From contig NZ_RAQC01000001.1 in assembly GCF_003610405.1 (NCBI RefSeq), positions 1,860,001 to 1,924,000 on the forward strand: DNA of 64,000 bases, in the 5' to 3' direction. Source of the stretch: Microbacterium sp. AG238. Its GTDB lineage: Bacteria; Actinomycetota; Actinomycetes; Actinomycetales; Microbacteriaceae. The notes under the pieces are model-generated. The model made no database searches. It had not been told where the DNA came from and saw only the letters and a program-made list of their open reading frames with translations. Shown here one piece after another: positions 1,235 to 45,002 of this stretch (within the stretch, counting starts at the first letter, position 1; each line of letters begins with the position of its first letter). A program made the position numbers and the translations under genes.

Positions 1235-1318
1235 GCCGCAACTCCTCGATTTCGGGCCGTCTCCAGCCTGACGTCGGCTGCGACGTCCGAGCTGGACGTG
1301 TTCTTGAGGAGTTACGGC
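1235..1318. repeat. Intergenic hairpin element A
   Basis: 84-nt imperfect palindrome between the convergent ends of purD and the MFS gene. Outer arms are GCCGCAACTCCTC (1235-1247) and GAGGAGTTACGGC (1306-1318), matching at 12 of 13 positions. Further in, CCAGC pairs with GCTGG, and the centre is ACGTCG-GCTG-CGACGT. No T-tract follows on either side, so this is not a standard intrinsic terminator. It is one of eight such elements in the window (A-H). Confidence 0.8.
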
Positions 1319-1337
1319 AGGCCGCGGGTCAACCAGC

Positions 1338-2831
1338 TCAGCGCTGCGCGAGGTGCGCGGGACGCTTCAGGAAGATCACGACGATCACGGCGACCCCGAT
1401 GACGACGGCCGGCAGCACCATCGCCTGAGCCATCGCGGCCGAGAACCCCTCGGCGATCGCGGGAGGCATCGAGCCGCCGCCACCGCCGAAGTCGCCGCCC
1501 GCGGCATCCCCGGCACCGGGGAGGTTCGCGGTGAGCCGCGACTGCATGTACGCCGCGATCGCCGCCGAGCCGATGACCGAGCCGACCGTCCGGGTCGTGT
1601 TGTAGATGCCCGAGCCGGCGCCGGCCTGGCGCGGCGGCAGGTTGCGGGTCGCCGTCGTGGCGAGGGGTCCCCACATGCCGGCGTTGGCGACACCGATGAT
1701 GGCGGCGGGGATGAGGAGCAGCAGCACCGGCGCCTCGGTGTTCATCAGCAGCGCGTAGCCGACCAGGCCCACCACCATCAGCATCAGACCGGGGACGAGC
1801 AGCAGACGCGGGTCGACCCGATCGAGGATGCGGCCGGCCAGCGGCGCGAGCGCACCCGAGAGGATCGCCATCGGCACCAGCAGCAGCGCCGACTGCGTCG
1901 GCGTGAGGCCGCGCGCGAGCTGCGTGAAGAAGGCCATCGGCAGAGCCATGCTCGTCACGGTGAACCCGACGGCCGCGATCGCGATGTTGGAGATCGCGAA
2001 GTTGCGGTCGCGGAAGAGCTCGAGCGGCACGAGCGGCTCGCTCTTGGTGCGTCCCTGCGTCCAGACGAAGACCGCCATGACGACCACACCTGCGGCGATC
2101 ATCGCCCAGATGCCGGCGGCCCAGTCATAGTGCTCGCCCTCCTGCAGGCCGAAGACGATGAGGAAGAGTCCGATCGCGCTCAGCACGACGCCCACGACAT
2201 CGAAGCGGTGGGGGTGCGTCTCGAGCTGGGGCACGAGGCGCCACGCCAGCACGAACGCCACGACGCCGACGGGGATGTTGACGAAGAAGATCCACTCCCA
2301 ACCGAAACCGTCGACGAGCAGCCCGCCCGCGAGGGGGCCGACGAGGGTGGCGACACCGGCGGTGGCGCCCCACAGGCCCATGGCGGCGCCTCGGCGTTCG
2401 GCGGGGAAGGTGCGGGTGATGACAGCCATCGTCTGCGGAGTCATGAGGGCTGCGCCGAGACCCTGCACGGCGCGGGCGACGATGAGAACGGCGAGGGAGC
2501 CCGACAGCCCGCAAGCGAGGGAGGCGACCGTGAAGATCGCGAGCCCGATCAGGTAGATGTTCTTCGGCCCGAACCGGTCGCCGAGACGGCCCGTGACCAG
2601 CAGCGGCACGGCGTACGCGAGCAGGTACGACGACGTGACCCACACGACGTTGTCGAGGTTGCCCGTCGACGGGTCGAGCGCGGCCTTGATCGCAGGATTC
2701 GCGACCGAGACGATCGTCGTGTCGACGAGGATCATGAAGAATCCGATGACCATCGCCCACAGGGCGGGCCACGGGTTGACGGCGGATGGGGCGCCTCCGG
2801 GGGCGCGGACGGTGTCGGTCTTCTCGCTCAT
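1338..2831 (-). CDS. MFS multidrug exporter, DHA2 (EmrB/QacA) type
   Basis: Predicted 497-residue, 14-helix drug/proton antiporter of the plasma membrane. The first helix carries ILVDTTIVSVANPAI, typical of the DHA2 branch. GRLGDRFGPKNIYL is MFS motif A between helices 2 and 3, and GPLAGGLLVDGFGWEWIFF is the antiporter-type motif C region. I chose the ATG at 2831 because it overlaps the PadR stop codon as ATGA, which implies translational coupling; the frame stays open upstream but only inside padR. Substrate cannot be told from sequence. It is probably induced when the coupled PadR repressor is released. Confidence 0.93.
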   Translation of the reverse strand: MSEKTDTVRAPGGAPSAVNPWPALWAMVIGFFMILVDTTIVSVANPAIKAALDPSTGNLDNVVWVTSSYLLAYAVPLLVTGRLGDRFGPKNIYLIGLAIFTVASLACGLSGSLAVLIVARAVQGLGAALMTPQTMAVITRTFPAERRGAAMGLWGATAGVATLVGPLAGGLLVDGFGWEWIFFVNIPVGVVAFVLAWRLVPQLETHPHRFDVVGVVLSAIGLFLIVFGLQEGEHYDWAAGIWAMIAAGVVVMAVFVWTQGRTKSEPLVPLELFRDRNFAISNIAIAAVGFTVTSMALPMAFFTQLARGLTPTQSALLLVPMAILSGALAPLAGRILDRVDPRLLLVPGLMLMVVGLVGYALLMNTEAPVLLLLIPAAIIGVANAGMWGPLATTATRNLPPRQAGAGSGIYNTTRTVGSVIGSAAIAAYMQSRLTANLPGAGDAAGGDFGGGGGSMPPAIAEGFSAAMAQAMVLPAVVIGVAVIVVIFLKRPAHLAQR

Positions 2832-3451
2832 GCGCGTGCGGCTTCTCTCTGTGCCAGATAGCGGTCGGTCGGTGCGAGGTCGGTGACCCCCCACACGGTG
2901 TCGGGGCGACGGATGTACTCGACCGCTTCGTCGAGCCAGGCGACATCCGCCGACAGCAGAGCCGTCTCGCGATGCACCTCGATCCAGAACTGGGGGTAGG
3001 AGCCGCGTTCGATCGCGTGGTCGCGCGCCTGGCGGTGCGCGTCGAGGGATGCCGCCAGGGCGTCGCGTCGCTCGCTGAGGAGCGCCACCACTTCGGCGCG
3101 GTCGAGGTTGTGCGACTCGGCCAGCGCGACGCGGAAACGCTCGGGGCGGTCGATGGCGGGGAGCTCGCGCCGCACCCACGCGATCAGCATGTCGGCGCCG
3201 GCCCCCGTCAGCGTGTACGTCGTCCGCTCCGGACGGTTGCCGTCACGATCGGTGCCGACCTCGGCGATGAGTCCCTGCCGCTCGAGACGCGCGACCGTGT
3301 GATAGATCGTGCCGTGCGTCAGGGCGACGAGGCGGTCGGCCTTGCGCTCGCGCAACAGACGGACCATCTCGTAGGCGTGCATGTCGTCCTCGTGCAGCAG
3401 CGCGAGCAGCATCAGCCCCAGCGGGGTGAGTCGGTCGACGGCATCCGGCAT
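2828..3451 (-). CDS. PadR-family transcriptional repressor
   Basis: 207-residue PadR regulator. The N-terminal winged helix (about residues 8-85) contains ALLHEDDMHAYEMVRLL and TIYHTVARLERQGLI, both characteristic of PadR, followed by a helical dimerisation region. It overlaps the downstream MFS gene by 4 nt, so the two form one transcript. A perfect-arm palindrome lies 17 nt upstream of its start codon and probably mediates autoregulation. Known PadR-transporter pairs respond to phenolics or drugs; the ligand here is unknown. Confidence 0.93.
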   Translation of the reverse strand: MPDAVDRLTPLGLMLLALLHEDDMHAYEMVRLLRERKADRLVALTHGTIYHTVARLERQGLIAEVGTDRDGNRPERTTYTLTGAGADMLIAWVRRELPAIDRPERFRVALAESHNLDRAEVVALLSERRDALAASLDAHRQARDHAIERGSYPQFWIEVHRETALLSADVAWLDEAVEYIRRPDTVWGVTDLAPTDRYLAQREAARA

Positions 3452-3467
3452 GGCACCCCCCTCTCAC

Positions 3468-3485
3468 ATAGTCCATGTGGACTAT
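3468..3485. promoter_or_regulatory. Predicted PadR operator
   Basis: ATAGTCC-ATGT-GGACTAT, a 7-bp perfect inverted repeat with a 4-bp spacer, 17 nt upstream of the padR start and 54 nt upstream of purC. Its placement upstream of a PadR gene suggests autoregulation; binding is inferred. Confidence 0.75.
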
Positions 3486-3526
3486 ACGCCTTTTTTCACG
3501 GGTGATCGCAACCGGTCCCGCTCCGG

Positions 3527-3532
3527 GATAAT
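3527..3532 (+). promoter_or_regulatory. -10 element of purC (leaderless)
   Basis: GATAAT, followed by exactly 6 nt and then the purC GTG. This spacing puts the transcription start at or next to the start codon, so the mRNA is probably leaderless. It supports the GTG at 3539 as the start. Confidence 0.7.
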
Positions 3533-3538
3533 GGCCGG

Positions 3539-4417
3539 GTGAGCGCCCTCGATCTGCCCGGCTGGAAGCACGTGTACTCCGGCAAGGTCCGCGACCTGTA
3601 CCGCCCGGACGACGGAGCGCACGATCGGATGCTGGTCGTCGCCAGCGACCGCGTGAGCGCGTTCGACCAGGTGCTCGATCCCGGCATCCCCGGCAAGGGC
3701 GAGCTGCTCACTCGACTGAGCCTGTGGTGGTTCGCCCAGCTCGCCGGCCGTGACGGCGGCCGGCCGATCCCCAACCATGTGCTCGGGCTTCAGCCCCCGG
3801 CAGCCGTTGCGGCCCGCGCCATGATCGTTCGCGAACTCGACATGCAGCCGATCGAGTGCATCGTGCGCGGGTACCTGACCGGCACGGGCTGGGCCGAGTA
3901 CTCCGAGAACGGCACGGTGTGCGGCATCCCGCTCCCCGACGGCCTGCAGAACGGTGACCGCCTGCCCGAGCCGATCTACACGCCGGCCTACAAGGCGCCC
4001 CTCGGCGAGCACGATGAGAACATCTCGTTCGAGCGCACCGAAGAGCTCGTCGGCGCCGAGACCGCCGCCGCGCTGCGTGACGCGTCGCTCGAGATCTACC
4101 GACGAGCCGCCGCTCTCGCCGAGAGCAAGGGGCTCATCCTCGCCGACACCAAGTTCGAGTTCGGCCTCGACGCCGACGGCGTGCTGACCCTCGCCGACGA
4201 GGTGCTCACGAGCGACTCGTCGCGCTACTGGGATGCCGAGGCCTGGCGCACCGGCACGACGCCCGCCGAGCGCATGGCGAGCTACGACAAGCAGATCGTG
4301 CGCGACTGGCTGGGCGCCAATTGGGACAAGACCGGCACTCCCCCGGCGCTGCCTGCCGAGATCGTCGAGCGCACCGCGGCGAAGTACCGCGAGCTGCTCG
4401 AGACGCTCGCCGGCTGA
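3539..4417 (+). CDS. purC: Phosphoribosylaminoimidazole-succinocarboxamide synthase
   Basis: Joins CAIR and aspartate with ATP to give SAICAR in purine synthesis. 292 residues, the usual length for the longer actinobacterial form. Visible signatures are YSGKVRDLY (N-terminal nucleotide loop), YKAPLGEHDENISFE and LADTKFEFGLD. The start is GTG, placed by a leaderless-type -10 box directly upstream. In many relatives purC follows purD closely; here a PadR/MFS pair on the other strand sits between them, and purC has its own promoter. Confidence 0.97.
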   Translation: MSALDLPGWKHVYSGKVRDLYRPDDGAHDRMLVVASDRVSAFDQVLDPGIPGKGELLTRLSLWWFAQLAGRDGGRPIPNHVLGLQPPAAVAARAMIVRELDMQPIECIVRGYLTGTGWAEYSENGTVCGIPLPDGLQNGDRLPEPIYTPAYKAPLGEHDENISFERTEELVGAETAAALRDASLEIYRRAAALAESKGLILADTKFEFGLDADGVLTLADEVLTSDSSRYWDAEAWRTGTTPAERMASYDKQIVRDWLGANWDKTGTPPALPAEIVERTAAKYRELLETLAG

Positions 4418-4493
4418 CCCCGCGACGCGTCGGGACGACCGGTTGCCCGCGCGTTCTGCGGAGCGCCGACCGGGCGTCCAGGGATCTCACAGG

Positions 4494-4499
4494 TAGGGT
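4494..4499 (+). promoter_or_regulatory. -10 element and leader of the uracil/xanthine permease gene
   Basis: TAGGGT about 50 nt before the ATG at 4551, giving a short leader. GAGGAG at 4541-4546, 4 nt before the ATG, is a strong ribosome binding site. I see no attenuator or known riboswitch in the leader. Confidence 0.5.
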
Positions 4500-4550
4500 A
4501 GGGCCGCTCTCGCGCTCCATCCCGAATCCCTCATCCTTCCGAGGAGTCCC

Positions 4551-5891
4551 ATGCCCATCTGGTCCCTCCACGGCGACGGTCGCACCGTCGCGCGCGGCGC
4601 CGTCGTCAAGCCCGGCGAGCGCCTGAACTGGCCCGGCACGATCGCCATCGGCGCGCAGCACGTCGTCGCGATGTTCGGTGCGACGTTCCTCGTGCCGATC
4701 ATCACCGGCTTCCCCGTGTCGACGACCCTGCTCTTCTCCGGTCTCGGCACCCTCGTCTTCCTGCTGATCACGCGCAACAAGCTGCCCAGCTACCTGGGCT
4801 CGTCGTTCGCCTTCATCGCGCCCATCACGGCGCTCAACGGCGGGAACCGCCTCGAGACCGGCGAGCAGATCACGCAGGCGCTCCTCGGCGTCGTCGTCGC
4901 GGGCCTCCTGCTCGCGGCGGTCGGCTTCATCGTGCAGGCCTTCGGCACGGGCTGGATCGAGAAGCTCATGCCGCCCGTGGTCGCCGGCGCGATCGTCGCG
5001 CTGATCGGCTTCAACCTCGCGCCCGCGGCGTGGAACAACTTCCAGATCCAGCCAGAGATCGCCACGGCCACCCTGTGCGCCGTCATCCTGTTCAGCGTGC
5101 TGTTCCGCGGTTTCCTCGGCCGGATCTCGATCTTCCTCGGCGTGATCGTCGGCTACATCGTGGCCGCCGTCACCGGTCAGGTGAAGTTCGAGGCCGTCGA
5201 GGCCGCCGACTGGTTCGGCCTTCCCGACTTCCACCTCGTGGCCATCGGGGATGCCGCGGCCTGGTCGATCGTGCCGATGTTCCTGCCGGTCGTGCTCGTC
5301 CTGATCGCCGAGAACGTCGGCCACGTGCGCGGTGTCGCCACCATGACCGACGACCCGTCGATCAACAAGCACACCGGCCGCGCGCTCATCGCCGACGGCG
5401 TCGCGACGACCCTCGCCGGCGGCTTCGGCGGCTCGGGCACCACGACCTACGGCGAGAACATCGGCGTCATGGCCGCGACCCGCGTGTACTCCACGGCCGC
5501 GTACTGGGTGGCGGGCATCGTCGCGATCCTGCTCGCGTTCTCGCCCAAGGTCGGGGCCGTGTTCAACACGATCCCGGCGGGAGTGCTCGGCGGCGTCACC
5601 ACCGCCCTCTACGGCCTCATCGGCGTGATCGGCATCAAGATCTGGGTCGACAACCGCGTCGACTTCTCCCGCCCCGTCAACCAATACACCGTCGCGGTGT
5701 CGTTCGTCATCGCGATCGCCGGCTTCGCGATGAACCTCGGCTCGCTGCAGTTCGGCGCGATCGTGCTCGGCACCATCGCCGCCCTCGTCATCTACCACGC
5801 GGGCAACGCGATCGCGCGCTGGCGCAAGACCGGCGCCGACGACGGTGGCCCCATCCCCGCGGTGGGCCCCCTGGGCGGCGACCCCCAGTAA
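4551..5891 (+). CDS. Uracil/xanthine permease, NCS2 family
   Basis: 446-residue nucleobase/proton symporter of the NCS2 (UraA/PbuX) family, about 14 membrane segments. Helix 1 holds the conserved QH motif (IGAQHVVAMFGATFLVPI). The substrate-site region around helix 8 reads LVLIAENVGHVRGVA, and GTTTYGENIGVMAATRVYS matches the helix 10 region. UraA-like proteins take up uracil while others take xanthine; the pur genes on either side do not settle this. A good RBS (GAGGAG, 4 nt) supports the ATG. Hairpin element B begins 6 nt after the stop codon. Confidence 0.93.
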   Translation: MPIWSLHGDGRTVARGAVVKPGERLNWPGTIAIGAQHVVAMFGATFLVPIITGFPVSTTLLFSGLGTLVFLLITRNKLPSYLGSSFAFIAPITALNGGNRLETGEQITQALLGVVVAGLLLAAVGFIVQAFGTGWIEKLMPPVVAGAIVALIGFNLAPAAWNNFQIQPEIATATLCAVILFSVLFRGFLGRISIFLGVIVGYIVAAVTGQVKFEAVEAADWFGLPDFHLVAIGDAAAWSIVPMFLPVVLVLIAENVGHVRGVATMTDDPSINKHTGRALIADGVATTLAGGFGGSGTTTYGENIGVMAATRVYSTAAYWVAGIVAILLAFSPKVGAVFNTIPAGVLGGVTTALYGLIGVIGIKIWVDNRVDFSRPVNQYTVAVSFVIAIAGFAMNLGSLQFGAIVLGTIAALVIYHAGNAIARWRKTGADDGGPIPAVGPLGGDPQ

Positions 5892-5896
5892 TCCGT

Positions 5897-5965
5897 AACG
5901 CCGAGTGCGCGGCATCCCGTCGACTGTCCGACTTTCAGACGCGAGGATGTCGTGCACTCGGCGTT
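5897..5965. repeat. Intergenic hairpin element B
   Basis: 69-nt element between the permease and VOC genes. The 12-bp outer arms are perfect: AACGCCGAGTGC (5897-5908) and GCACTCGGCGTT (5954-5965). The interior continues pairing imperfectly (GCATCC near one arm against GGATGTC near the other, then GAC..GTC). There is no T-tract. It starts 6 nt after the upstream stop codon. Confidence 0.8.
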
Positions 5966-6025
5966 GTGTCGTGCATTCGCGGCCACGCGGCGGGGGGAAT
6001 GACATTGGGGGGGCGGGGGTTGTGT

Positions 6026-6907
6026 ATGCGTATGAATGAGAAGCTCGCAGATGCCACGACGATGGGCGCCGTCACCCTGCTGGTCGGCGACCTCGACGGC
6101 ATGACGCGCTACTACCGTGACGTCGTGACCCTGCAGGTCCTCGCCGCCGACGGCGACACCGTCACGCTCGGGCGCGCCCGCCGGCCGGTCGTGATCCTGC
6201 GCCACGAGCCCGCGCTCCGCCACGCGGCCGCCGGATCGGCGGGCCTCTTCCACACCGCCATCCTCTTCGAGACGCAGTCGGCCCTCGCCGCGGCGCTCTA
6301 CAGCGTCGCCCGACACGCCCCGACGACCTTCACCGGCAGCGCCGACCACCTCGTCAGCCAGGCGTTCTACTTCACCGACCCCGAGGGCAACGGCATCGAG
6401 CTCTACTGGGACCGCGATCGCAGCACCTGGTCGTGGACCCATGGGCAGGTCGAGATGGACACGCTCTACCTCGACCCCAACGCCTTCCTGCGCGAGCACC
6501 TCGACCCCGCGGCGCTCGACGGCGCGGGCAGCGCCGGCTCCGCACCGTCCGATCCTGCCCGCGTCGGGCACGTGCACCTCTCCGTCGGCGACGTGGCGAC
6601 GGCCCGGGCGTTCTACATCGGCGCCCTCGGCTTCGACACGACCGCGGCGCTCGGCGATCAGGCCCTCTTCGTCAGCGCCGGCGGCTACCACCACCACATG
6701 GCGATGAATGTCTGGAACTCTCGGGGCGCAGGGCCCCGCATGCCGGCGCTCGGCCTCGGCCGCGTCGATCTCGCCCTGCCGACGCCCGACGACCTCGGCG
6801 CTCTCGCCGAACGCCTCCGCCACCACGGCGTCGCCGTTCGCGACGACGGCCGAACGGTCGCGTTCGACGACCCGTGGAACAACACGCTCCACGCCGCCGT
6901 AGCCTGA
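6026..6907 (+). CDS. Two-domain VOC (glyoxalase/extradiol dioxygenase-like) protein
   Basis: 293 residues made of two vicinal-oxygen-chelate modules (about residues 12-135 and 170-290) separated by a linker containing HLDPAALDGAG. The layout resembles CatE-type catechol 2,3-dioxygenases and ring-opening VOC enzymes: GLFHTAILF and NGIELYWDRD in the first module, GHVHLSVGDVATARAFY and GGYHHHMAMNVW in the second supply likely metal ligands (His, Glu). The reaction is not assignable. ATG 6026 or 6032 are both possible; upstream is a G-rich stretch that may act as RBS. It converges on cebR with 12 nt between stops. Confidence 0.88.
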   Translation: MRMNEKLADATTMGAVTLLVGDLDGMTRYYRDVVTLQVLAADGDTVTLGRARRPVVILRHEPALRHAAAGSAGLFHTAILFETQSALAAALYSVARHAPTTFTGSADHLVSQAFYFTDPEGNGIELYWDRDRSTWSWTHGQVEMDTLYLDPNAFLREHLDPAALDGAGSAGSAPSDPARVGHVHLSVGDVATARAFYIGALGFDTTAALGDQALFVSAGGYHHHMAMNVWNSRGAGPRMPALGLGRVDLALPTPDDLGALAERLRHHGVAVRDDGRTVAFDDPWNNTLHAAVA

Positions 6908-6919
6908 GCGCAGCGCGCG

Positions 6920-7933: not shown

Positions 7934-7940
7934 AGGTGGG

Positions 7941-17551: not shown

Positions 17552-17566
17552 CGGAAGGAGCGGGAG

Positions 17567-18571
17567 ATGGTCGGCATCGACGACGTCGCGCGACGCGCGG
17601 AGGTCTCGACGGCGACCGTCTCCCGCACCCTCAGCGGCCGGGGCCCGGTGTCACCCACGACGCGCGAGCGCGTGCTGCGGGCGGCATCCGACCTGGGCTA
17701 CGTCGTCTCGTCGGCGGCGTCGAGTCTCGCATCCGGGCGCACCCGCAACATCGGCGTGCTCGTGCCGATGCTCGACCGGTGGTTCTTCTCGCGCGTGCTC
17801 ACGGGCATTGCCGCGACCCTCCAGCGTGACGACTACGACGTCGCGCTGTACGCCCTGACCGCCGAGGCCGACGAGCGGCGCCGGGTGTTCGCCACCTCGC
17901 TGCGACGCCAGCGGGTCGACGGGGTCATCGTGGTGTCGATGGCCCTCGCCCGCGACGAGATCGCGCAGCTGGGCGACCTGGGCCTGCCGGTGATCGCCAT
18001 GGGCGGGCAGCTCGCCGGCCTGCGCTCGCTCACCGTCGACGAGATCGAGGTCGCCCGGACGGCGACCGAGCATCTCCTCGGCCTCGGGCACCGCGACATC
18101 GCCCACATCGGCCTGCATCCGCAGTTCGAGGGCGACTTCCACATCCCGTCACAGCGCCGACGCGGGTTCGAGGCCGCACTGGCCGAGGCCGGCCTGCCCG
18201 CGCGTGGCGACCGGTTCGCGGCTGCCGATTTCACGATGGCCGGCGGCCACGAGGCCGCGACGCGGCTGCTCCGTGGCGCCGAGACCCGCCCGACCGCGAT
18301 CTTCGCGGCCTCGGACGAGATGGCGATCGGCGCGATGCTTGCCGCGCGCGAGCTCGGGCTGCGCGTTCCGGAGGACCTGTCGGTGATCGGGGTCGACGGC
18401 CACGACCTCGGCGGGTTCTTCGGCCTCACCACGGTCGATCAGTTTCCGGGACGACAGGGCGAGCGCGTGGCCTCGGCGATGATCGCGGGGCTGCGCGGGG
18501 CAGCATCCGAACCCCCCGCCGACCTCGACTTCGCGCTCGTGGAGCGGTCGAGCACCGCACCGCCCGCCTGA
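17567..18571 (+). CDS. LacI-family regulator, likely controls the adjacent alpha-glucosidase
   Basis: 334 residues. HTH IDDVARRAEVSTATVSRTLS begins at about residue 4; hinge region ends SSAASSLASGRTRNIGVL, then the sensor domain with FAASDEMAIGAM. An AAGGAG RBS lies 7 nt before the ATG. It follows the GH13 gene on the same strand, and the perfect palindrome before that gene suggests a self-contained sugar-responsive unit with negative feedback. The effector sugar is unknown. Confidence 0.92.
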   Translation: MVGIDDVARRAEVSTATVSRTLSGRGPVSPTTRERVLRAASDLGYVVSSAASSLASGRTRNIGVLVPMLDRWFFSRVLTGIAATLQRDDYDVALYALTAEADERRRVFATSLRRQRVDGVIVVSMALARDEIAQLGDLGLPVIAMGGQLAGLRSLTVDEIEVARTATEHLLGLGHRDIAHIGLHPQFEGDFHIPSQRRRGFEAALAEAGLPARGDRFAAADFTMAGGHEAATRLLRGAETRPTAIFAASDEMAIGAMLAARELGLRVPEDLSVIGVDGHDLGGFFGLTTVDQFPGRQGERVASAMIAGLRGAASEPPADLDFALVERSSTAPPA

Positions 18572-20842: not shown

Positions 20843-20920
20843 CGGATGCAAGGGTTCGTCACCGACACGCCGCGGCGCGGCATCCGCACGCGGCGCGTTG
20901 TGACCGATTCGTTGCATCCG
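20843..20920. repeat. Intergenic hairpin element C
   Basis: 78-nt element between the two paralogous membrane proteins, 32 nt after the first stop. Outer arms CGGATGCAA (20843-20851) and TTGCATCCG (20912-20920) pair perfectly, then GTCAC with GTGAC, then ACGCCGCG-type sequence with CGCGGCGCGT. The arm shares GATGCAAGGG with element G. Confidence 0.78.
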
Positions 20921-23918: not shown

Positions 23919-23988
23919 GCGAGAACGTACCCTCGCCGCGACACCGCACCCTCCACGGTGCCCTCTCGAGCGAACGGTAGGCTCTCGC
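23919..23988. repeat. Intergenic hairpin element D
   Basis: 70-nt imperfect palindrome between the convergent permease and coiled-coil genes, 44 nt after the permease stop. Arms GCGAGAACGTACC (23919-23931) and GGTAGGCTCTCGC (23976-23988). Its first 32 nt match the reverse complement of element E (25033-25064) at 29 of 32 positions. Confidence 0.7.
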
Positions 23989-24016: not shown

Positions 24017-24958
24017 TCAGGCGTCGAGAAGGAGACGTTCGCGGTGGGCGAGGAGGGCGGCGGTGCGCGTCTCGACGGCATCCGCCCGCTGGGCGAGGTA
24101 GTCGCCGAGGCCATCGAGACGCAGGCGAAGATCGGATGCCGCGGCCTGCGCGTCGGCGATGCGCTGGCGCACCATGAAGTCCGCGATCACGTTGTCGAAC
24201 AGCACGTCGAAGACGGCGAGCGACTCCGAGATCTGCACGCCCGCGAGGGGCGGCGCGTCGATGTCGGCGAGTTCGGTCGCCAGAGTCTCGAGCGCCCGGT
24301 TCACGACCGTGAAGGCGCGGGCGGACCGTCCGATGCGGTCGTGCTTCATCCAGTCGGCGACCATGCCGCCGCCGAAGAAGGTGTCATAGGTCGACCAGCC
24401 TCCCGCGGAGTCGAGGGCCTGCTGTGCAGCGCCGAGAGCCTCCTGGGCCCGCTCGAGCGCCGACCGCGCCTCGGCGATCTCCCGTGCCTCGGCGCTGAGC
24501 ACGCCGGCCTCGGAGTCGAGCCGCGTGAGCTCGGCCGCGGCATCCGGATCGGCGGCCCGCAGTTCGTGCTCGCGCCGGGCGAGGGCGGCCGCGTAGGCGG
24601 CATCCACGTCGCCGAGCGCGGCGATCTCGTCCTCGATCCGGGCCAGGTCGACCCGGGCGTGCGCGAGCCGCTCGGTCGCGCCGTCGACGGCATGCTCGGC
24701 CGCCTGCTGCTCCGCCCGCTCGACCGCAAGCTTGTCGTCGATGTCGCCGCGGAGGAGACCCCACACCTGCGCCGGCGAGAAGCGCTCGAGACGGCGCACG
24801 TCGGCGGTCTCGACCCGCAGCTTCTGCTGCAGCTCGGCGAGGTCGCGCTCGCGCTGCGCGACGAGGCCGCGGGCGGCGTCGGCGTGCGCGGTCAGCTGGT
24901 CGCGCCGCGCGCGGTCACGCGCCGCATCGTGCAGTTCACCGGAAGTCGTGTCACTCAT
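24017..24958 (-). CDS. Unknown coiled-coil protein
   Basis: 313 residues, predominantly helical and rich in Ala, Glu, Arg and Leu. Long coiled-coil segments run through most of residues 15-170 (LVAQRERDLAELQQKL, AEAREIAEARSALERAQEAL). A more globular stretch follows with GGWSTYDTFFGGGMVADWMK, then another helical part. No signal peptide or membrane segment. The start at 24958 is preceded by GAGGGGT; another ATG lies 9 nt upstream. Flanked on both sides by related hairpin elements D and E in opposite orientation. Family not recognised. Confidence 0.82.
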   Translation of the reverse strand: MSDTTSGELHDAARDRARRDQLTAHADAARGLVAQRERDLAELQQKLRVETADVRRLERFSPAQVWGLLRGDIDDKLAVERAEQQAAEHAVDGATERLAHARVDLARIEDEIAALGDVDAAYAAALARREHELRAADPDAAAELTRLDSEAGVLSAEAREIAEARSALERAQEALGAAQQALDSAGGWSTYDTFFGGGMVADWMKHDRIGRSARAFTVVNRALETLATELADIDAPPLAGVQISESLAVFDVLFDNVIADFMVRQRIADAQAAASDLRLRLDGLGDYLAQRADAVETRTAALLAHRERLLLDA

Positions 24959-24994
24959 ACCCCTCATCGTGCCAGCGCGCCGCGCTCGTCCGCA

Positions 24995-25064
24995 GCGAGC
25001 GCGTACCGGTGCCGCGAGCGCGTACCCCACACGGTGCGTTCTCGCGGCGGGGGTACGTTCTCGC
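24995..25064. repeat. Intergenic hairpin element E
   Basis: 70 nt with the longest continuous pairing in the window: about 32 bp around a 6-nt loop. Outer arms GCGAGCGCGTACC (24995-25007) and GGTACGTTCTCGC (25052-25064) match at 11 of 13; inner arms GCCGCGAGCGCGTACC and GGTGCGTTCTCGCGGC match at 13 of 16. Outer and inner arms resemble each other. Unlike the other elements it lies between divergent starts. Confidence 0.8.
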
Positions 25065-25108
25065 CGATCCAGCTCGACCCGGCCCGAGCTCGCGTCGGCG
25101 GGCGGGCG

Positions 25109-25114
25109 TAGCCT
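25109..25114 (+). promoter_or_regulatory. -10 element of sufS (leaderless)
   Basis: TAGCCT followed by 6 nt and the sufS GTG. Confidence 0.6.
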
Positions 25115-29437: not shown

Positions 29438-29520
29438 GAACGAACTTCGGAGATCGGCGCGAAAGTCGGACCAGGATGCCGCATCCGTCCGAATCTCGCG
29501 TGATTCTCCGAAGTTCGCTC
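29438..29520. repeat. Intergenic hairpin element F
   Basis: 83 nt, 33 nt beyond the stop of the DksA-like gene and upstream of the arsR-like gene. Left arm from 29438 reads GAACGAACTTCGGAGA and pairs with TCTCCGAAGTTCGCTC (ends 29520), 15 of 16. GCGCGA and TCGGA pair further in, and the centre is the palindrome GGATGC-C-GCATCC. Confidence 0.82.
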
Positions 29521-30459: not shown

Positions 30460-30460
30460 C

Positions 30461-34979: not shown

Positions 34980-35055
34980 CGATGCAAGGGATGCGGGGCG
35001 CCGCGCCGAAGCGGGATGCCGTTCGCCGGGGTGTCGCGCCCGATCCCTTGCATCG
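34980..35055. repeat. Intergenic hairpin element G
   Basis: 76 nt between kdpC and kdpD. Arms CGATGCAAGGGAT (34980-34992) and ATCCCTTGCATCG (35043-35055) are a perfect 13-bp pair; pairing continues with CGGGGCGC against GCGCCCG and CGAA against TTCG near the centre. Shares GATGCAAGGG with element C. Confidence 0.85.
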
Positions 35056-38304: not shown

Positions 38305-38315
38305 ATGCTGCTGGG

Positions 38316-38321: not shown

Positions 38322-38327
38322 CGGGCC

Positions 38328-38852: not shown

Positions 38853-38861
38853 GCGGCCGCG

Positions 38862-39686
38862 TCAGTCGGAGCCTGAGCGGTCAGCGCCGACGGCAGGTTC
38901 GAGAAAGCGGTTGGACCACGCGAACGCGATGAGCTCGCTCCGTGACGACAGTCCGAGCTTCTTCAGGATGCTGCCGACATGCGACTTCACCGTCGCCTCG
39001 CTGATGAAGGCGTTGGCAGCTACCTCCGCATTGGACCGGCCCCGGGCGACGAGATCGAACACCTCGCGCTCACGGTGCGAGAGCGGGAGGGACGCCGTCG
39101 CAGCTTCGTCGGCCGGGCGCTTCGCAGTGGGGCGGCGGTCCGCAGGCGTCAGGCGCGGCCGCCCCAGACGCCACCCGAGCCACGCGCCCATAACGCTGAG
39201 CGTCGTACAGAGCGCGATGGCGTCGAGACCTCCGGCGAGGTCCTTGCCACTGACGGTGCCCCACCGGCCGGAGATCGAGAGCGCGGGAACGGTCAACAAC
39301 GCACCGACAGCGACCGCGCATACGAGGACCCACGCCAGCACGAGGCGACGGCGCTCGGGAGGGGTGCTCCGCGAGAGGAATGCGGGCAGCGGCAGCAGCA
39401 GCGCATAGCCGACCCAGCTCACCTGACTGAAGCGAGCCGGCCAGAACAACAGCTGCACGATGAGCAGGGTAACCAGCAGCACCGCGGACCAGGTCGGACG
39501 AACGCCGGCCAGCGCCATGGCGGCAGCGAAGCCGACCATGACCGCGAGGCCGTAAACGGATGTCGCGAAGGTGTCGTCGCGCACGAGTACGACGTCGAGG
39601 CGATCCAGCCCCGCCACCGCGAGCCAGAGCGCGAGCGCGAGGAGCCCGGTGATCGGCGCGAGGAACCGCGAAACGAGGGGTGTCAT
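38862..39686 (-). CDS. Membrane-bound LuxR-type one-component regulator
   Basis: 274 residues. About six hydrophobic helices occupy residues 10-180 (for example GLLALALWLAVAGL, VSWVGYALLLPLPAF, LAWVLVCAVAVGALL). A short linker leads to a C-terminal LuxR HTH: LPLSHREREVFDLVARGRSN and ISEATVKSHVGSILKKLGL (about residues 203-260). There is no receiver domain and no adjacent kinase, so the membrane part is probably the sensor. Targets are unknown. It converges on the GNAT gene with 9 nt between stops. Confidence 0.88.
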   Translation of the reverse strand: MTPLVSRFLAPITGLLALALWLAVAGLDRLDVVLVRDDTFATSVYGLAVMVGFAAAMALAGVRPTWSAVLLVTLLIVQLLFWPARFSQVSWVGYALLLPLPAFLSRSTPPERRRLVLAWVLVCAVAVGALLTVPALSISGRWGTVSGKDLAGGLDAIALCTTLSVMGAWLGWRLGRPRLTPADRRPTAKRPADEAATASLPLSHREREVFDLVARGRSNAEVAANAFISEATVKSHVGSILKKLGLSSRSELIAFAWSNRFLEPAVGADRSGSD

Positions 39687-39793
39687 GGGGCGAGGCTATG
39701 CCACCGGCGCGGCTCGCTCGCAGCGGATTCGCCCGCTCCGGCACGAGATCATCCGAAGGTCGGACGCTCCTCCCGAAGTCGCACCCGCCTCCG

Positions 39794-40996
39794 TCAGAAG
39801 TCTCGCGTCTCGTCGAACCAGCTCAGCGCGTCCTCCGCGGTGACGCCCAGCGCGATGGGACGCGCCTGGGTCTGCAGCTGCAGCACCGCGTCGCCGACGT
39901 CCTCGCGTTCGGTCGTCTCGATGCCGGGCACACTGTTGAAGCGTTCGACGAAGGCGACGATCGCGGCGCGAGCCTCGCCGAGGTCCTGCGACGCGGCGAG
40001 CGACGCGAGCGCGGCGTCGTAGGCGGCATTGGCGATCTTCGCTCGTCGGGCGTCCCAGCCCGCGAACGGGCGGCCGTACTCCTGCTGCCACCACTCGGGC
40101 TTTCGCAGCTTCACGACCGATGCGTAGTCGTCCCACGGTCGCGTCTTCGCGCGCGCACGCATCTGCGAGCGGAGGACCTTTCCGCCCGCCTCGTCGACGT
40201 TGAATGCGATGAGCCGCTCGAGCGACGGCCACGTGTCGAGCGACGGCATCCCGTCGAGGTTCGGCACGAAGCGGATCTCGAGACCGCGGAGCGCGTCGAG
40301 CTCGCCCAGCGCTTCCCAGTCGGTGAAGCTCCCGTGCAGCGACAGGCTCTCGATCCGGGTGAACTGCCGGAGCGCCGTCAGCGAGATCGGACGACCGAGC
40401 GGAGCGCCCGACAGCGTCACCGACTCGACGTCTCGTAACGGACCCAGGTCGGGGACGACGACCGGCTCCCCCGTCGCGCGGCCGAGCGCCGGCAGCAGCG
40501 AGAGCGATCGCGGAAGCGCCCCGTCCGTCCGCAGCCGGGCGAGGTCGCCCGCGACGCTGAGGTGGTAGACCGCCGGCATCGTCAGACGCAACGATCCGCG
40601 CAGCGCGCCCAGACGGAGGAACAGGCTGTGGATGTCGGAACCCGCGGCATCCACGTCGCGGTCGTCGGCGAACTCGGGCGTCCACGAGAAGTTCTCGATC
40701 GGGCGCCGCCGCGCCCAGGCGAAGAAGCCGGCGTCGTTACCGCGATAGACGATGTGTCTGGGCCACGGAGAACCTGCAGGTGTCGCGAAGGGATCGAACG
40801 CCGACCAGTCGATCGCGTCGTCCGGCCCGATCTGCAGGTCGACCGGCTTCCCGTCGGCGGGCCCGAGCGAGAGGTCTCCTCGTCCGGGTTGGATCGTGAG
40901 GACATGACTGTCGGGACCGGTGAGGTTGAGCCGATACGACCCCCAATCGCTGACGGAACCAGCCGGCTGATCGGTCACATCTCTCGGGCCGGTCAT
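39794..40996 (-). CDS. Unknown protein with leucine-rich-repeat-like segment
   Basis: 400 residues, no signal peptide or membrane helix. A middle stretch (about residues 180-275) has strand-loop repeats with a 20-24 residue period: LGPLRDVESVTLSG, LRQFTRIESLSLHG, LGELDALRGLEIRF, LDTWPSLERLIAFN, typical of leucine-rich repeats. N-terminal and C-terminal parts are not recognised. The ATG at 40996 has AAAGGTG five bases upstream and was preferred over one 33 nt further out. A plus-strand spacer of 107 nt after its end shows nothing notable. Confidence 0.82.
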   Translation of the reverse strand: MTGPRDVTDQPAGSVSDWGSYRLNLTGPDSHVLTIQPGRGDLSLGPADGKPVDLQIGPDDAIDWSAFDPFATPAGSPWPRHIVYRGNDAGFFAWARRRPIENFSWTPEFADDRDVDAAGSDIHSLFLRLGALRGSLRLTMPAVYHLSVAGDLARLRTDGALPRSLSLLPALGRATGEPVVVPDLGPLRDVESVTLSGAPLGRPISLTALRQFTRIESLSLHGSFTDWEALGELDALRGLEIRFVPNLDGMPSLDTWPSLERLIAFNVDEAGGKVLRSQMRARAKTRPWDDYASVVKLRKPEWWQQEYGRPFAGWDARRAKIANAAYDAALASLAASQDLGEARAAIVAFVERFNSVPGIETTEREDVGDAVLQLQTQARPIALGVTAEDALSWFDETRDF

Positions 40997-41091
40997 GGGA
41001 CACCTTTCACACCGGGGACGGTCGGACACTCCCGCCGCAGCATAGCCACCGCCGGAGAAGGATGCCGAGCTGCTGCACGAGACTGGGAGCC

Positions 41092-41514
41092 ATGGCAGGT
41101 TTCCATCATGTCGAGCTCTGGGTCAGCGACATCGAGTCCGCCCGCCGGGAATGGGGCTGGTTGCTTCGGCGGGTCGGCTTCGACCTCGAGAGCACGTGGC
41201 CGCAGGGCGAGTCGTGGGCCGCGGGCGGGGCGTACTTGACGCTCACCACCTCCCCGAACACGGTCGGCATCGAGCACGACCGTCGGCGCCCGGGCCTGAA
41301 CCACCTGGCCTTCCGCGGCGGCTCCCCCGCCGAGGTCGACGCGATCGTGGCCGACGCCCCGTCCGCAGGTTGGATGCCGCTGTACCAGGAGCGTTACCCG
41401 CACGCCGGCGGCCCCCAGCACTACGCCGGCTGGCTCGAGAACGCGGCGGGCTTCAAGGTCGAGGTCGTCGCGGCGGACGAATCACCCCTGCCTGATCGTC
41501 GCGCGGGCAGCTGA
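41092..41514 (+). CDS. Single-domain VOC (glyoxalase-like) protein
   Basis: 140 residues forming one VOC module: GFHHVELWVSDIESARREWGW at the start, GLNHLAFRGGSPAEVDAIV in the middle and VEVVAAD at the end. Metal ligands would be His6, His (NHL) and Glu near the C-terminus. Substrate unknown; many such proteins are resistance or isomerase proteins. ATG 41092 gives the usual family start; ATG 41062 is an alternative. A GAGACT box lies 7 nt upstream. Confidence 0.87.
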   Translation: MAGFHHVELWVSDIESARREWGWLLRRVGFDLESTWPQGESWAAGGAYLTLTTSPNTVGIEHDRRRPGLNHLAFRGGSPAEVDAIVADAPSAGWMPLYQERYPHAGGPQHYAGWLENAAGFKVEVVAADESPLPDRRAGS

Positions 41515-41526
41515 CACCGCACCGCC

Positions 41527-41532
41527 GATAAT
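41527..41532 (+). promoter_or_regulatory. -10 element of the NTF2-like gene (leaderless)
   Basis: GATAAT, 6 nt before ATG 41539. Confidence 0.65.
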
Positions 41533-41538
41533 GGGCGG

Positions 41539-41931
41539 ATGGAACCGTGGGAGATGCACGCCTGGTACGCCGAGTACCTCGAGGCCTGCAACCGCCACGA
41601 CCTCGACGCCATCCGCTCCTTCATCGACCCAGAGGTCCGGCGAGCGCACCTGCCGGCCGGCGCCGACGCGTGGATGGCCGACGTCGTCGAGGTGCTCGAC
41701 GCCTTCCCTGACTGGCAGGTGCGCCGCATCCAGCTCGTCGTCGAGGACGACCGCATCGCCGCGCACGTGCGCGCGAGCGGCACGCACACCGGCCCGTTCC
41801 GCGGCATCCGACCCACCCGCCGCCACGTCAATGTGGCGGAGTTCGGGTTCCTGCGGGTGGCGGGAGGGCGCATCGTCGAGCTCGCCGGCACGACCGATCA
41901 CGCCGCGCTGCTGGCCCAGCTGCGCGACTGA
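41539..41931 (+). CDS. NTF2/SnoaL-like small protein
   Basis: 130 residues with the cone-shaped NTF2-like fold pattern: a first helix WYAEYLEACNRHDLDAIRSF, then ADVVEVLDAFPDWQVRRIQLVVEDDRIAAHV and the barrel strands ending VNVAEFGFLRVAGGRIVEL. Members of this polyketide-cyclase-like group bind small ligands or catalyse isomerisation. Function unknown. Followed 15 nt later by the DUF1349 gene on the same strand. Confidence 0.88.
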   Translation: MEPWEMHAWYAEYLEACNRHDLDAIRSFIDPEVRRAHLPAGADAWMADVVEVLDAFPDWQVRRIQLVVEDDRIAAHVRASGTHTGPFRGIRPTRRHVNVAEFGFLRVAGGRIVELAGTTDHAALLAQLRD

Positions 41932-41946
41932 CCCGAGAGGAACCCC

Positions 41947-42534
41947 ATGACCGACATCGCCTGGTCCGCCGGATCGTGGACCAACGAGCCCGCCGCCGCG
42001 ACGCTCGACGGCCACGACCTGCTCGTCACGGCGCACGAGGGAAGCGATGCCTGGCGCGTGACGTCGTACGGGTTCGTGCACGACGACGAGCACGCCCTGC
42101 TCGCGCCGATGGCACAGGGCACCGCGGTCGAGGTCGCGTTCGTGCTCGACTTCTCGGCGCAGTTCGATCAGGCGGGCGTCTTCCTCCGCGTCGACGACGA
42201 GACGTGGATCAAAGCCGGCGTCGAGCACAGCGACGGCACCGACAGCTTGGGCGCGGTCGTGACCCGCGGGATGTCGGACTGGTCGCTCTGCCCCGTCACC
42301 GATTGGGCGGGCCGAGTCGTCACGGTGCGCGCGAGCCGGTCGGGCGACGCCGTCACGATCAGAGCCCGCGTCGACGACGAGGACTGGCGCCTCGTCCGGG
42401 TGACGCCGCTCGACCCGGCGGCGGAGGTCGCTGCCGGACCGTTCTGCTGCGCGCCGACGCGCGCCGGGCTCACGGTTCGATTCGTGTCGTGGCGGAGCGT
42501 GGCTGCCGACCCGTCGCTGCATCCCGACCACTGA
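41947..42534 (+). CDS. DUF1349 (YesU-like, concanavalin-fold) protein
   Basis: 195 residues. Beta-rich with the DUF1349 pattern: AVEVAFVLDFSAQFDQAGVFLRVDDETWIKAGVE (in two pieces), GAVVTRGMSDWS and VTVRASRSGDAVTIRARVDDEDW. Family proteins are carbohydrate-binding-like and often lie near sugar genes, though not here. AGAGGAACCCC before the ATG is a good RBS. Its last 65 nt are overlapped by the convergent membrane gene. Confidence 0.88.
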   Translation: MTDIAWSAGSWTNEPAAATLDGHDLLVTAHEGSDAWRVTSYGFVHDDEHALLAPMAQGTAVEVAFVLDFSAQFDQAGVFLRVDDETWIKAGVEHSDGTDSLGAVVTRGMSDWSLCPVTDWAGRVVTVRASRSGDAVTIRARVDDEDWRLVRVTPLDPAAEVAAGPFCCAPTRAGLTVRFVSWRSVAADPSLHPDH

Positions 42535-43120
42535 GCCGCCGGCGCACCCACCAGTCGATGCCGGCCGCGCCCCACGCCGCGGCGAGCCCGCCGACGATCA
42601 CGATGCCCTGCATCGCCAACGCGTAGCCGCCGCTCGTGACGTTCGCCTCGACCAACCGCGGACCGACGATCGGCGGCACCAGCGCGACGACCATGACGAC
42701 CCATGACAACGGATGCCGCCCCCGCGCGACCACCCAGCCGCCCACGCCGGCGAGCAGCGCGATGAACCCCTGGTTGAGCACGACCGCCCACAGCGGGTCG
42801 AGGTGCGCGAGGTGACCGGCTCCGCGCAGCAGCCCGAACGTCGCCCACAGGAAGAGGGCGACGCAGGCGAGCGTCACCCCGCCGACGCGACGCATCGGCG
42901 AGGTGGGCAGCAGCGCGAACGCAGCGACGAGGGTCGCGACGACGAGAACGAACTGGAACGTGTCGACGTACGGCATGTCGTTCGTGATGGCGCCGGCGTA
43001 GATCTCGGCCTGCACGATCGCCGAGAAGTCCGACGCGACGGCGAGGTACGTCGCGAACGTCGCCGCGACGATCGCCGCCCCGTAGCGGGCACCCCGATCG
43101 AAACGCAGGCCGTCATCCAT
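42470..43120 (-). CDS. Unknown integral membrane protein
   Basis: 216 residues with about six hydrophobic helices: YGAAIVAATFATYLAVASDF, FQFVLVVATLVAAFALL, GVTLACVALFLWATFGLL, QGFIALLAGVGGWVVA, WVVMVVALVPPIVG and ALAMQGIVIVGGLAAAW. Tail is basic and cytosolic. No family recognised. Its 3' end overlaps the DUF1349 gene by 65 nt in convergent orientation, the largest real overlap in the window; both frames are convincing. Confidence 0.82.
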   Translation of the reverse strand: MDDGLRFDRGARYGAAIVAATFATYLAVASDFSAIVQAEIYAGAITNDMPYVDTFQFVLVVATLVAAFALLPTSPMRRVGGVTLACVALFLWATFGLLRGAGHLAHLDPLWAVVLNQGFIALLAGVGGWVVARGRHPLSWVVMVVALVPPIVGPRLVEANVTSGGYALAMQGIVIVGGLAAAWGAAGIDWWVRRRLSGRDAATGRQPRSATTRIEP

Positions 43121-43167
43121 GGGTGTGAGAGTAGCCTGATCGCCGAGCGCCGAGCGAGGGGAGCAGC

Positions 43168-44922
43168 GTGACCGACGCCGATCGCAACGAGACCGACGCC
43201 TCTTGGGCGAGCCGCCGACCGTCGCGTCGCGACTTCCTCCGCCGTGCGGGCCTCGGGGCTGCGGGCCTTGCGGTCGGGGGCTCGGCCGGTGCCGCGGTGA
43301 CGGCGGCGATGACCGCCCATCCGCCCGAGTTCGCGCCCCTCGCCGCGCGGAACGTCGCCGGCTTCGACCACGTCGTGGTGCTCATGTTCGAGAACCGCAG
43401 CTTCGACAACCTCCTCGGCCACCTCTACACGGCCGACGAGAAGAGTGCGGCCGACTTCGACGGCATCCTGCAGGGCGACTACGCCAACACCGCTCCCGAC
43501 GGCACGGTCGTGCCCGCGCACGTCTACACGGGCGCGACCGACCACATCATGCAGCAGCCGCAGCCCGACCCGGGCGAGACCTACCCGCACGTCAACACGC
43601 AGCTGTTCGGGACGATCGACCCGCCCGCCAACGCCGACATCGCCCGCAATGGGCTGCAGCCGCCGTACAACGCGCCCGCCGCGGGGAGCGCGCCGCGCAA
43701 CGACGGGTTCGTGCACGACTACATCGTCAACTACCGCCTCGCGAAGAAGCGCGAGCCCACCGTCGACGAGTACACGACGGCCATGGGCGGCTTCTCGCCC
43801 GAGATGCTGCCGGTGATCTCGACGCTCGCCCGCGAGTTCGCCGTCTACGACCGCTGGTTCGCCGGGGTGCCGTCGCAGACCTTCTGCAACCGCAGCTTCT
43901 TCCATGCCTCCACCTCGCACGGCTACGTCGTCAACCACACCGGCGACAACTACGACAAGTGGATCGACGCGCCCGCGGCGCCGACGATCTTCAACCGCCT
44001 CGAAGACGCCGGCCTGTCGTGGCGTGTCTACTACGACGCGACGCAGCTCGTGTCGCTGACCGGCATGCTCCACGCGCCCGTGCTCGAGCGGTACTGGAAG
44101 ACCAATTTCCGCGTCATGGAGCAGTTCTACGAGGATGCCGCGAACGGCGAGCTGCCCGACTACGCCTTCATCGAGCCGCGCATGGTGTTCAACCACAACG
44201 ACATGCACCCGCCGTGGGGCGCGACCCGCGAGGGCGAGCTCGAGCTGCCCGACGGCAGCCGCATCCGCATCACCAACAGCGCCGACAGCGACGTGCGCGC
44301 CGGCGACAAGCTCGCGCAGGACGTGTACGACGCGATCCGCACGAGCGCGTCGGCATCCGGTTCGAACGCGATGAACACCGCGCTCGTCATCACCTTCGAC
44401 GAGCACGGCGGCACCTTCGACCACGTCGCCCCACCGGCCGCGCCACCGCCCGACGCGAGCGGCCCCGGCGAGATGGGGTTCGCCTTCGACCGCCTCGGTC
44501 TGCGGGTGCCGGCCATCGTGGTGAGCGCGTACACCGCGGCCGGAACCGTGATCCACGACGAGATGCACCACGGCTCGGTGATCAACACGCTGTGTCGTCT
44601 GCACGGGCTGCGGCCGCTCAACGTCCGCGACGAGACCGCGAACCCGATCTTCAACGCGGTCAACCTCACGACGCCGCGTCAGCCCTACACCTGGCCGCAG
44701 CCGCAGTCGCTCTATGCCCCGCCGAACCCCGAGAAGGGGGCGGCGAAGGCCCCCGACGAGAAGCACCACAAGCGGCCGCTCACCCCGCCGGCGCGAGGAC
44801 TGCTCGGGCTGCTGACGTCGCGCTTCGACCCCGGCAGCACCCTGCCCGCGACGTACGGCGAGGCATACGACGCGCTCGTCGAGCACGGCACGGGCCTCTT
44901 CGGCGCGTACAACACCCCCTGA
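43168..44922 (+). CDS. Tat-exported phospholipase C / acid phosphatase-like phosphoesterase
   Basis: 584 residues. A twin-arginine signal (RRDFLRRAG, Arg pair at 20-21) and hydrophobic stretch to about residue 48 direct export in folded form. The phosphoesterase family begins with DHVVVLMFENRSFDNLLGHL (metal site Glu/Asn); NTPC-like STSHGYVVNH and the distal ITFDEHGGTFDHVAPP complete the active site. The family includes bacterial non-specific phospholipases C; exact substrate unknown. GTG start with GAGGGGAGC upstream. Element H follows 14 nt after the stop. Confidence 0.92.
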   Translation: MTDADRNETDASWASRRPSRRDFLRRAGLGAAGLAVGGSAGAAVTAAMTAHPPEFAPLAARNVAGFDHVVVLMFENRSFDNLLGHLYTADEKSAADFDGILQGDYANTAPDGTVVPAHVYTGATDHIMQQPQPDPGETYPHVNTQLFGTIDPPANADIARNGLQPPYNAPAAGSAPRNDGFVHDYIVNYRLAKKREPTVDEYTTAMGGFSPEMLPVISTLAREFAVYDRWFAGVPSQTFCNRSFFHASTSHGYVVNHTGDNYDKWIDAPAAPTIFNRLEDAGLSWRVYYDATQLVSLTGMLHAPVLERYWKTNFRVMEQFYEDAANGELPDYAFIEPRMVFNHNDMHPPWGATREGELELPDGSRIRITNSADSDVRAGDKLAQDVYDAIRTSASASGSNAMNTALVITFDEHGGTFDHVAPPAAPPPDASGPGEMGFAFDRLGLRVPAIVVSAYTAAGTVIHDEMHHGSVINTLCRLHGLRPLNVRDETANPIFNAVNLTTPRQPYTWPQPQSLYAPPNPEKGAAKAPDEKHHKRPLTPPARGLLGLLTSRFDPGSTLPATYGEAYDALVEHGTGLFGAYNTP

Positions 44923-44936
44923 CACACCGGCCCGAG

Positions 44937-45002
44937 CCGTCGAGTCGCCGCAAAGCGCGGATGCCGGACCTCCCGCATCCGCGTTTTCTGGCGACTCGAC
45001 GG
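44937..45002. repeat. Intergenic hairpin element H
   Basis: 66 nt between the phosphoesterase and purL. Perfect 13-bp arms CCGTCGAGTCGCC (44937-44949) and GGCGACTCGACGG (44990-45002), and an inner pair CGCGGATGC..GCATCCGCG. Its right arm covers the place where a -35 hexamer of the purL promoter would be. Confidence 0.85.

Follow-up and report, generated by a model that had tools for sequence, protein, structure and literature searches.

Palindromic elements and their families

The window analyzed here is a stretch of 64,000 nt of the Microbacterium sp. AG238 genome (contig NZ_RAQC01000001.1, positions 1,860,001 to 1,924,000) and harbors eight long intergenic palindromes, termed A to H, which were reported in a first-pass annotation made from the sequence. 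Six of them belong to sequence families dispersed over the genome, and several of these families include a lone gene for a predicted nuclease with the same palindrome beside it. The elements, in window coordinates and with no strand assigned, are as follows.

Element A, 1235..1318: palindrome between convergent genes, half-site CGCAACTCCTC
Element B, 5897..5965: palindrome 6 nt past a permease gene, half-site CGAGTGC(A/G)CG
Element C, 20843..20920: C/G family, GATGCAAGGGATC - N5 - CGACACCCCG
Element D, 23919..23988: D/E family, four times CGAGAACGCACC, convergent genes on either side
Element E, 24995..25064: D/E family, divergent genes on either side
Element F, 29438..29520: F family, four times CGAACTTCGGAG
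Element G, 34980..35055: C/G family, in the kdpC-kdpD spacer
Element H, 44937..45002: H family, outer half-site GTCGASTCGCCA and inner half-site GCGGATGC, 15 nt past a phosphoesterase gene

The genes flanking element A, a GARS/ATP-grasp gene and a major facilitator superfamily (MFS) gene, end at 1214 and 1338, respectively. All eight stretches pair with themselves nearly end to end, as had been described, with folding energies of -32 to -54.5 kcal/mol, D being the weakest. A gapped palindrome scan was run over 464 kb (the window and 200 kb on each side), with wider gaps in place of a narrow-gap version that missed A, D and G, and its null consisted of three Markov sequences of equal length (orders 1, 3 and 5, with maxima of 27.6, 24.4 and 24.6). 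Nearly nothing in this null scores higher than A (25.2), B (24.4), F (32.6) or H (32.2); G (22.8), C (21.6) and E (19.8) are still within its upper range, and D scores below 15. C, D, E and G are not significant as palindromes alone, and count as significant because they belong to a repeat family. An initial scan by RNA energy did not discriminate (78 window hits versus 52-68 across five shuffles), and no Rfam or tRNA match was found in the window. Seven of the eight elements start 6-45 nt past a stop codon, as previously stated (A 21, B 6, C 33, D 45, G 31 and H 15 nt, with F 34 nt from a minus-strand stop), the exception being E, between divergent genes. The reported absence of T-tracts is right for the outer ends, none of which shows the GC stem and T-tract of an intrinsic terminator, but H carries GTTTTC following its inner stem. 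Another strong palindrome, at window positions 17554-17632, lies across the start of a called gene and is retained in G070, a relative of ~85% identity with synteny in blocks.

Searches of the whole Microbacterium genome (3.38 Mb, with contigs labelled C1, C2 and C3) recovered 23 places with G as query (itself counted, three weaker matches left out), 18 with E, 7 with F and about 20 with H. Within the 464 kb, A and B match only themselves; a search of 1.3 Mb of G070 yielded 2 places for B, other species hold relatives of A and B, and further palindrome families are visible in the neighborhood of the window. The likenesses of C to G and of D to E were both recovered by sequence searches. The arms of the eight elements are indeed mostly different, as first described, but six of the eight (C to H) are members of multi-copy families, and the notion of a single class of unrelated hairpins does not survive this result.

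The aligned copies (C/G 24, D/E 20, F 7 and H 22; 73 in all, of which a few are partial or doubtful) reveal a common plan, in which an outer half-site of 12-13 nt is followed by a variable spacer of ~6 nt, an inner half-site of 8-12 nt, a loop and the mirror image, so that each copy holds four half-sites (outer, inner, inner' and outer') with variable spacers. In D/E and F the outer half-site recurs as the inner one ~20 nt on. The perfect C/G arm pattern occurs in 11 stretches of GTDB contigs, every one of them from Microbacterium. In the 464 kb, inverted pairs and intergenic single half-sites number, respectively, 6 and 4 for H, 13 and 6 for the C/G outer half-site, 15 and 2 for D/E, and 2 and 0 for F, with 4, 10, 18 and 4 extra single half-sites inside called genes. 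Between genes, half-sites are therefore mostly found as inverted pairs, the doublet arrangement of REPINs. The hexamer GGATGC exceeds its Markov expectation in the same 464 kb (1065 versus 781).

The conservation of these elements appears to lie in DNA sequence. Over 19 C/G copies, conservation of both arms leaves the outer and inner helices paired in ~90% of cells. The figure for the spacers is 32.6%, and compensatory changes are seen in 6 cells, fewer than the 14.6 of shuffled alignments. Conserved arms with unpaired spacers fit double-stranded half-sites that are read by a protein. On these grounds, the RNA structure at 3' ends that the first-pass annotation had offered as a possible shared cause is not supported, and RNA structure was rejected as the conserved feature for the C/G family, in which alone the count was made. 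The spacers of H look partly complementary, as judged by eye. Given that the elements favor gene ends, they may have a secondary role in termination.

Lone nuclease genes flanked by palindromes

Among ten genes inspected near clusters of copies, two encode DUF559/MTES_1575 proteins. Genome-wide, eight DUF559/Vsr-like nuclease genes were found, each with a different palindrome beside it and all beyond the 64-kb window; they look lone by gene calls, their neighbors not having been annotated one by one.

C/G nuclease, C2:517656-518492: cognate of C and G, flanked by C/G palindromes
F nuclease, C3:165132-165818: flanked by F-family palindromes
J nuclease, C1:1670 kb: flanked by the J palindrome
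K nuclease, C2:180 kb: flanked by the K palindrome
M nuclease, C2:161 kb: flanked by the M palindrome (by reading)
Family 4 nuclease, C1:797 kb: family 4 palindromes on both sides, one of them decayed
N nuclease, C3:158 kb: flanked by the N palindrome
D/E nuclease, C1:2414 kb: cognate of D and E

By reading, palindromes are present on both flanks at all eight loci, and six of the eight locus palindromes recur elsewhere, namely C/G, D/E, F, K (2 places), 4 (2-3) and J (1). Window elements C, D, E, F and G have a cognate gene in their own genome. A candidate partner for A is locus L236 of the relative G042, where three copies with AACTCCTCAA surround the gene, and one for H is L226 of G038, the flanks of which share the 9-nt outer half-site GAGTCGCCA. 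A ninth profile match falls inside a 795-aa frame without palindromes, and the total for the genome at E<=1e-8 counts a tenth, the position of which is unlisted. Two Vsr-like matches in long frames (L152 and L137) have no palindrome pair. In G070, a nuclease distantly like that of D/E (C1:2659696-2660805, L306/L307) adjoins an ordinary hairpin, with no clear palindrome pair. Two flanked genes that do not encode nucleases, one between two copies of H and a glyoxalase-like one between two copies of B in G070, were judged by eye to be chance.

One member of the nuclease group has 1,231 homologues at E<=1e-10; among the best 120 of these, the nearest named ones are Microbacterium proteins annotated as "very-short-patch-repair endonuclease", "DUF559" or "AbiEi family antitoxin domain". 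In the AlphaFold2 model of a 97% relative of the C/G nuclease (mean predicted local distance difference test score, pLDDT, 89.6), residues 4-168 match AbiEi, with a predicted winged helix-turn-helix and AbiEi C-terminal fold, and residues 171-272 match enzymes of the Vsr fold, one of which is the homing endonuclease I-Bth0305I (catalytic domain). In PADLOC the hits concern mainly the AbiEi part, and NCBIfam yielded nothing useful. The partner protein is predicted to combine DNA binding through an AbiEi-like part with a part resembling Vsr and homing endonucleases.

The association of gene and palindrome was assessed with a flank test, which asks for a blastn match at E<1e-3 between left and right flanks that is itself palindromic. 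In a first nuclease set 32 of 34 loci pass, and in the full set, enlarged by 60 top-ranking matches, the figure is 68 of 95 (7/8 in the own genome and 61/87 in relatives); L161, L170 and L173, at contig ends, were dropped from the former count, and L170 and L173 from the latter. Outside the genus, 19 of 28 loci pass, L285 and L288 weakly. The corresponding figures are 0/29 for control KdpC loci, 2/113 for genes of 700-1100 nt in the own genome (one of the two being the J nuclease itself), 1/113 for such control genes in G070 and 2/225 for ordinary genes overall. When the left flank of one nuclease locus was joined to the right flank of another, 9 of 282 combinations pass, at least 4 of which are pairs of related palindromes. 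These controls bear on the notion that the elements are miniature inverted-repeat transposable elements (MITEs) or isolated ends of a classical insertion sequence of the DDE type, with the nuclease genes as passengers or chance neighbors. End-to-end inverted repeats, dispersed copies and presence/absence between species would all be expected of such elements, but the controls reject chance flanking, the gene common to the examined loci is the nuclease and no target-site duplication was recognized in the strongly diverged flanks; we regard this account as very unlikely.

All 39 genomes sampled in the genus carry 2-15 genes of this kind at E<=1e-8, and in a survey of the order at least one is present in 55 of 59 sampled genomes and 33 of 35 genera. 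With one nuclease as query, plasmids gave 3 distant protein matches and phages 1 partial match.

Placement, turnover and species versions

Of the 73 copies in the four families, 16 fell in a called gene and 1 could not be placed; the remaining 56 comprise 29 in convergent, 24 in co-directional and 3 in divergent spacers, against 28, 108 and 54 among the 190 spacers of at least 60 nt in the 464 kb. Convergent spacers are hence enriched (29/56 versus 28/190, p 9e-8) and divergent ones avoided (3/56 versus 54/190), with the proviso that D and E are misplaced in these counts, because the home-made gene caller miscalled the gene at window positions 24044-25111, which in truth lies on the minus strand. 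Many H copies begin ~14 nt from stop codons. Both the convergent enrichment and this spacing might be taken to indicate transcription terminators or mRNA 3'-end stabilizers of a GC-rich genome, with families arising through local copying, and two spacers do hold a palindrome or a whole unit in one species and an ordinary terminator hairpin in the other. Nevertheless, the outer ends are devoid of T-tracts, the C/G family shows no covariation and has unpaired spacers, and nuclease genes flanked by their own palindrome are left unexplained, so that we regard this possibility as very unlikely.

Sites are occupied differently in different species. In G070, the orthologous site of C holds half a remnant, D is absent, E is retained but decayed (by reading), G is absent from a kdpC-kdpD spacer reduced to almost nil, and H is replaced by ~40 nt of other sequence; B is conserved at its orthologous site (by reading). 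The kdpC-kdpD spacer was read in 14 plus-strand loci out of 30 fetched; it contains G in the genome studied here, other palindromes in G039, G076, G011 and G091, and none in nine. Conversely, a classic two-way terminator hairpin at window positions 49229-49306 has as its counterpart in G070 a 92-nt palindrome with GAGAATCG half-sites. The suggestion of the first-pass annotation that these are mobile palindromes of several families is in keeping with the dispersed families, the presence/absence at orthologous sites and the different palindromes in one spacer, although movement itself was not seen. Several genomes have hairpins of the GCGGATGCCGCG type where genes end (L216, L240 and L242).

Whole units of gene and palindrome also differ in presence between the two genomes. 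At the syntenic sites of G070, ~100 nt stand in place of the M unit (2.1 kb), and ~70 nt with an ordinary terminator in place of the family 4 unit (1.15 kb). With queries from the own genome, blastn detected none of C/G, J, M, 4 and N in the 1.3 Mb of G070 searched, an absence that is informative only for 4, J and C/G, since M and N are also lacking in the own 464 kb. No match to the J nuclease locus was found in either part of this G070 sequence (an initial 500 kb and the other 800 kb), and none to the C/G nuclease locus in those 800 kb. The K gene is present in G070 together with 4 places of its palindrome, the N nuclease is kept with diverged N-type half-sites on both flanks, and the F nuclease gene is likewise kept.

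Among 58 loci with a motif score of at least 15, from which three terminators had been removed, no motif is shared by any of the 1,396 pairs with less than 40% protein identity; sharing is seen in 1 of 160 pairs at 40-50%, 9 of 84 at 50-60% and 8 of 13 above. Of the 18 motif-sharing pairs, both neighboring genes are common in 13, one in 2 and none in 3, and in 12 of the 13 a neighbor is more conserved than the nuclease, which suggests that the nuclease gene is inherited in place and fast-changing. With the C/G-type palindrome of G048 as query, 18 places were found in G048, 16 in G091, 9 in G015 and a weak one in G070, and the copies read carry the half-site version of their own species in 8/8 (G048), 10/10 (G091) and 7/8 (G015) cases; a G048-like query could favor the G048 version, yet the GATGCAA type of G015 was also found. 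The G048 version is the one that adjoins its nuclease (L212).

A further explanation has to be considered at this point, namely that the palindromes are operators or targets of nuclease-linked regulators or defence proteins, with AbiEi-like autorepression and with scattered copies acting as regulatory or decoy sites. It finds support in the AbiEi-like domain, since AbiEi autoregulates through inverted repeats (PMC7319586), and in C/G arms conserved as sequence rather than structure. However, the copies favor gene 3' ends and avoid divergent promoters, the sites vary among species and hold different palindromes, and palindromes stand on both sides of the gene, downstream included. We therefore deem the operator explanation unlikely.

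Proposed mechanism and relation to known systems

The finding of copies of one palindrome beside its nuclease gene argues that the protein likely binds these copies and would spread them. At least six dispersed families each have a lone gene with the same palindrome beside it, and we consider it likely that the predicted nuclease would bind the arms, cut and thereby copy the palindrome. The families, their four half-sites, the pairing with a gene, the species-specific versions of one motif and the presence/absence of whole units are observations, whereas binding of the own palindrome, cutting and repair-driven copying are inferred. The AbiEi-like part would bind the two palindrome arms, the Vsr-like part would nick or cut at the palindrome, and repair after the cut would copy it to a new place at a gene end; the bias towards gene 3' ends would most likely reflect the survival of harmless insertions, possibly aided by terminator activity. 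AbiEi proteins are reported to bind pairs of 23-bp inverted repeats and not each other's sites (PMC7319586).

Several observations weigh against this mechanism. No movement, binding or cutting has been observed, and no target-site duplication was recognized, the flanks of elements and units in G000 and G070 being too diverged for their ends to be read. The M and N palindromes have no copy beyond their locus in 464 kb at E<1e-3 and, as they were found beside their own genes only, dispersal is not apparent for either; in addition, the M pair failed the automatic flank test and rests on reading. B has no cognate nuclease among the loci compared, and the candidates for A and H lie in other species only, that for H being linked through one 9-nt half-site. 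The flank test fails at 27 of 95 nuclease loci, and at least three of the loci that pass (L216, L240 and L242) resemble ordinary terminators; the 95 were the best-scoring matches and not a random draw. Finally, the relation between motif and protein identity is present in the thresholded counts only, raw motif bit scores being uncorrelated with protein identity (Mantel r 0.03; 396 of 2,000 permutations equal or higher), and common ancestry of the locus accounts for some of the signal, given that 13 of the 18 motif-sharing pairs have both neighbors in common.

The closest parallel is the REPIN/RAYT system, described in PMC3116915 and PMC3733652 as ~70-nt dispersed inverted doublets, with several families per genome and a chromosomal gene flanked by the repeat. 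Intergenic inverted doublets, several families and a partner gene flanked by its own repeat are all found here, but with a different enzyme, AbiEi-like plus Vsr-like, with four half-sites and, by reading, with no GTAG end in the aligned copies. A RAYT partner was rejected, because the Y1 transposase (HUH, PF01797) gave no match in any of 28 genomes, including the own one (control genomes were positive in 5/14), and as this defining test failed the elements are not filed as REPIN-RAYT. The system would be, in function, an analogue of REPINs and their RAYT transposases that relies on an unrelated enzyme. With somewhat less assurance than for the mechanism, we think it probable that the elements represent an undescribed class of selfish repeats convergent with REPIN-RAYT, in which AbiEi-Vsr fusion nucleases, vertically kept and fast-changing, occur several to a genome throughout a bacterial order. 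Each would have its own half-site code and its own population of palindromes, and the palindromes would supply gene ends with hairpins.

Other known systems share single traits. The CGTC class of repetitive extragenic palindromes (REPs), 20-40 bp long with a CGTC end and, in the relevant part of PMC3733652, no known partner gene, likewise consists of dispersed palindromes without a Y1 partner; here, in contrast, a partner gene was identified. Homing endonucleases of the EDxHD/Vsr fold (I-Bth0305I) differ in that the genes reported here are linked to intergenic palindromes, carry an AbiEi-like N-terminal part and were seen with no intron or intein. The N-terminal 168 residues resemble, in predicted structure, AbiEi of the AbiE type IV toxin-antitoxin systems, but are fused to a nuclease in genes that look lone. 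The same Pfam nuclease family, PF18741, includes the MTES_1575-type Vsr restriction endonuclease domain, named after a Microbacterium testaceum protein and found in HEPN conflict proteins; there it occupies residues ~1,800-2,000 of a large HEPN/helicase fusion, palindromes going unmentioned in the corresponding portion of PMC3710099. No report tying DUF559/Vsr-like genes to dispersed palindromes turned up in the open-licence literature, although this is no proof that such a report is lacking.

These results provide bacterial palindromic intergenic repeats that lack a RAYT with a candidate partner and a testable mechanism, and suggest what proteins of these bacteria that are currently annotated as "DUF559", "AbiEi-domain" or "very-short-patch-repair endonuclease" may do. 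The natural pairs of enzyme and site, with their matched divergence, may serve as a set for learning how AbiEi-type proteins read DNA and for obtaining new site-specific nickases. If the proposed mechanism is true, the REPIN way of life would have evolved at least twice from unrelated nucleases.

Two minor observations were made besides. At C1:2027754-2027822, two GTTTCACGTGAAAC sites, which we take to be parS-like, make up a 69-nt palindrome, and a similar one is present in G070. Just beyond element H, ~90 nt that run from upstream of the gene called at 45061 into its start (window positions ~45008-45100) are identical with G070, in surroundings of ~85% identity, and may represent a constrained leader or a recent exchange.

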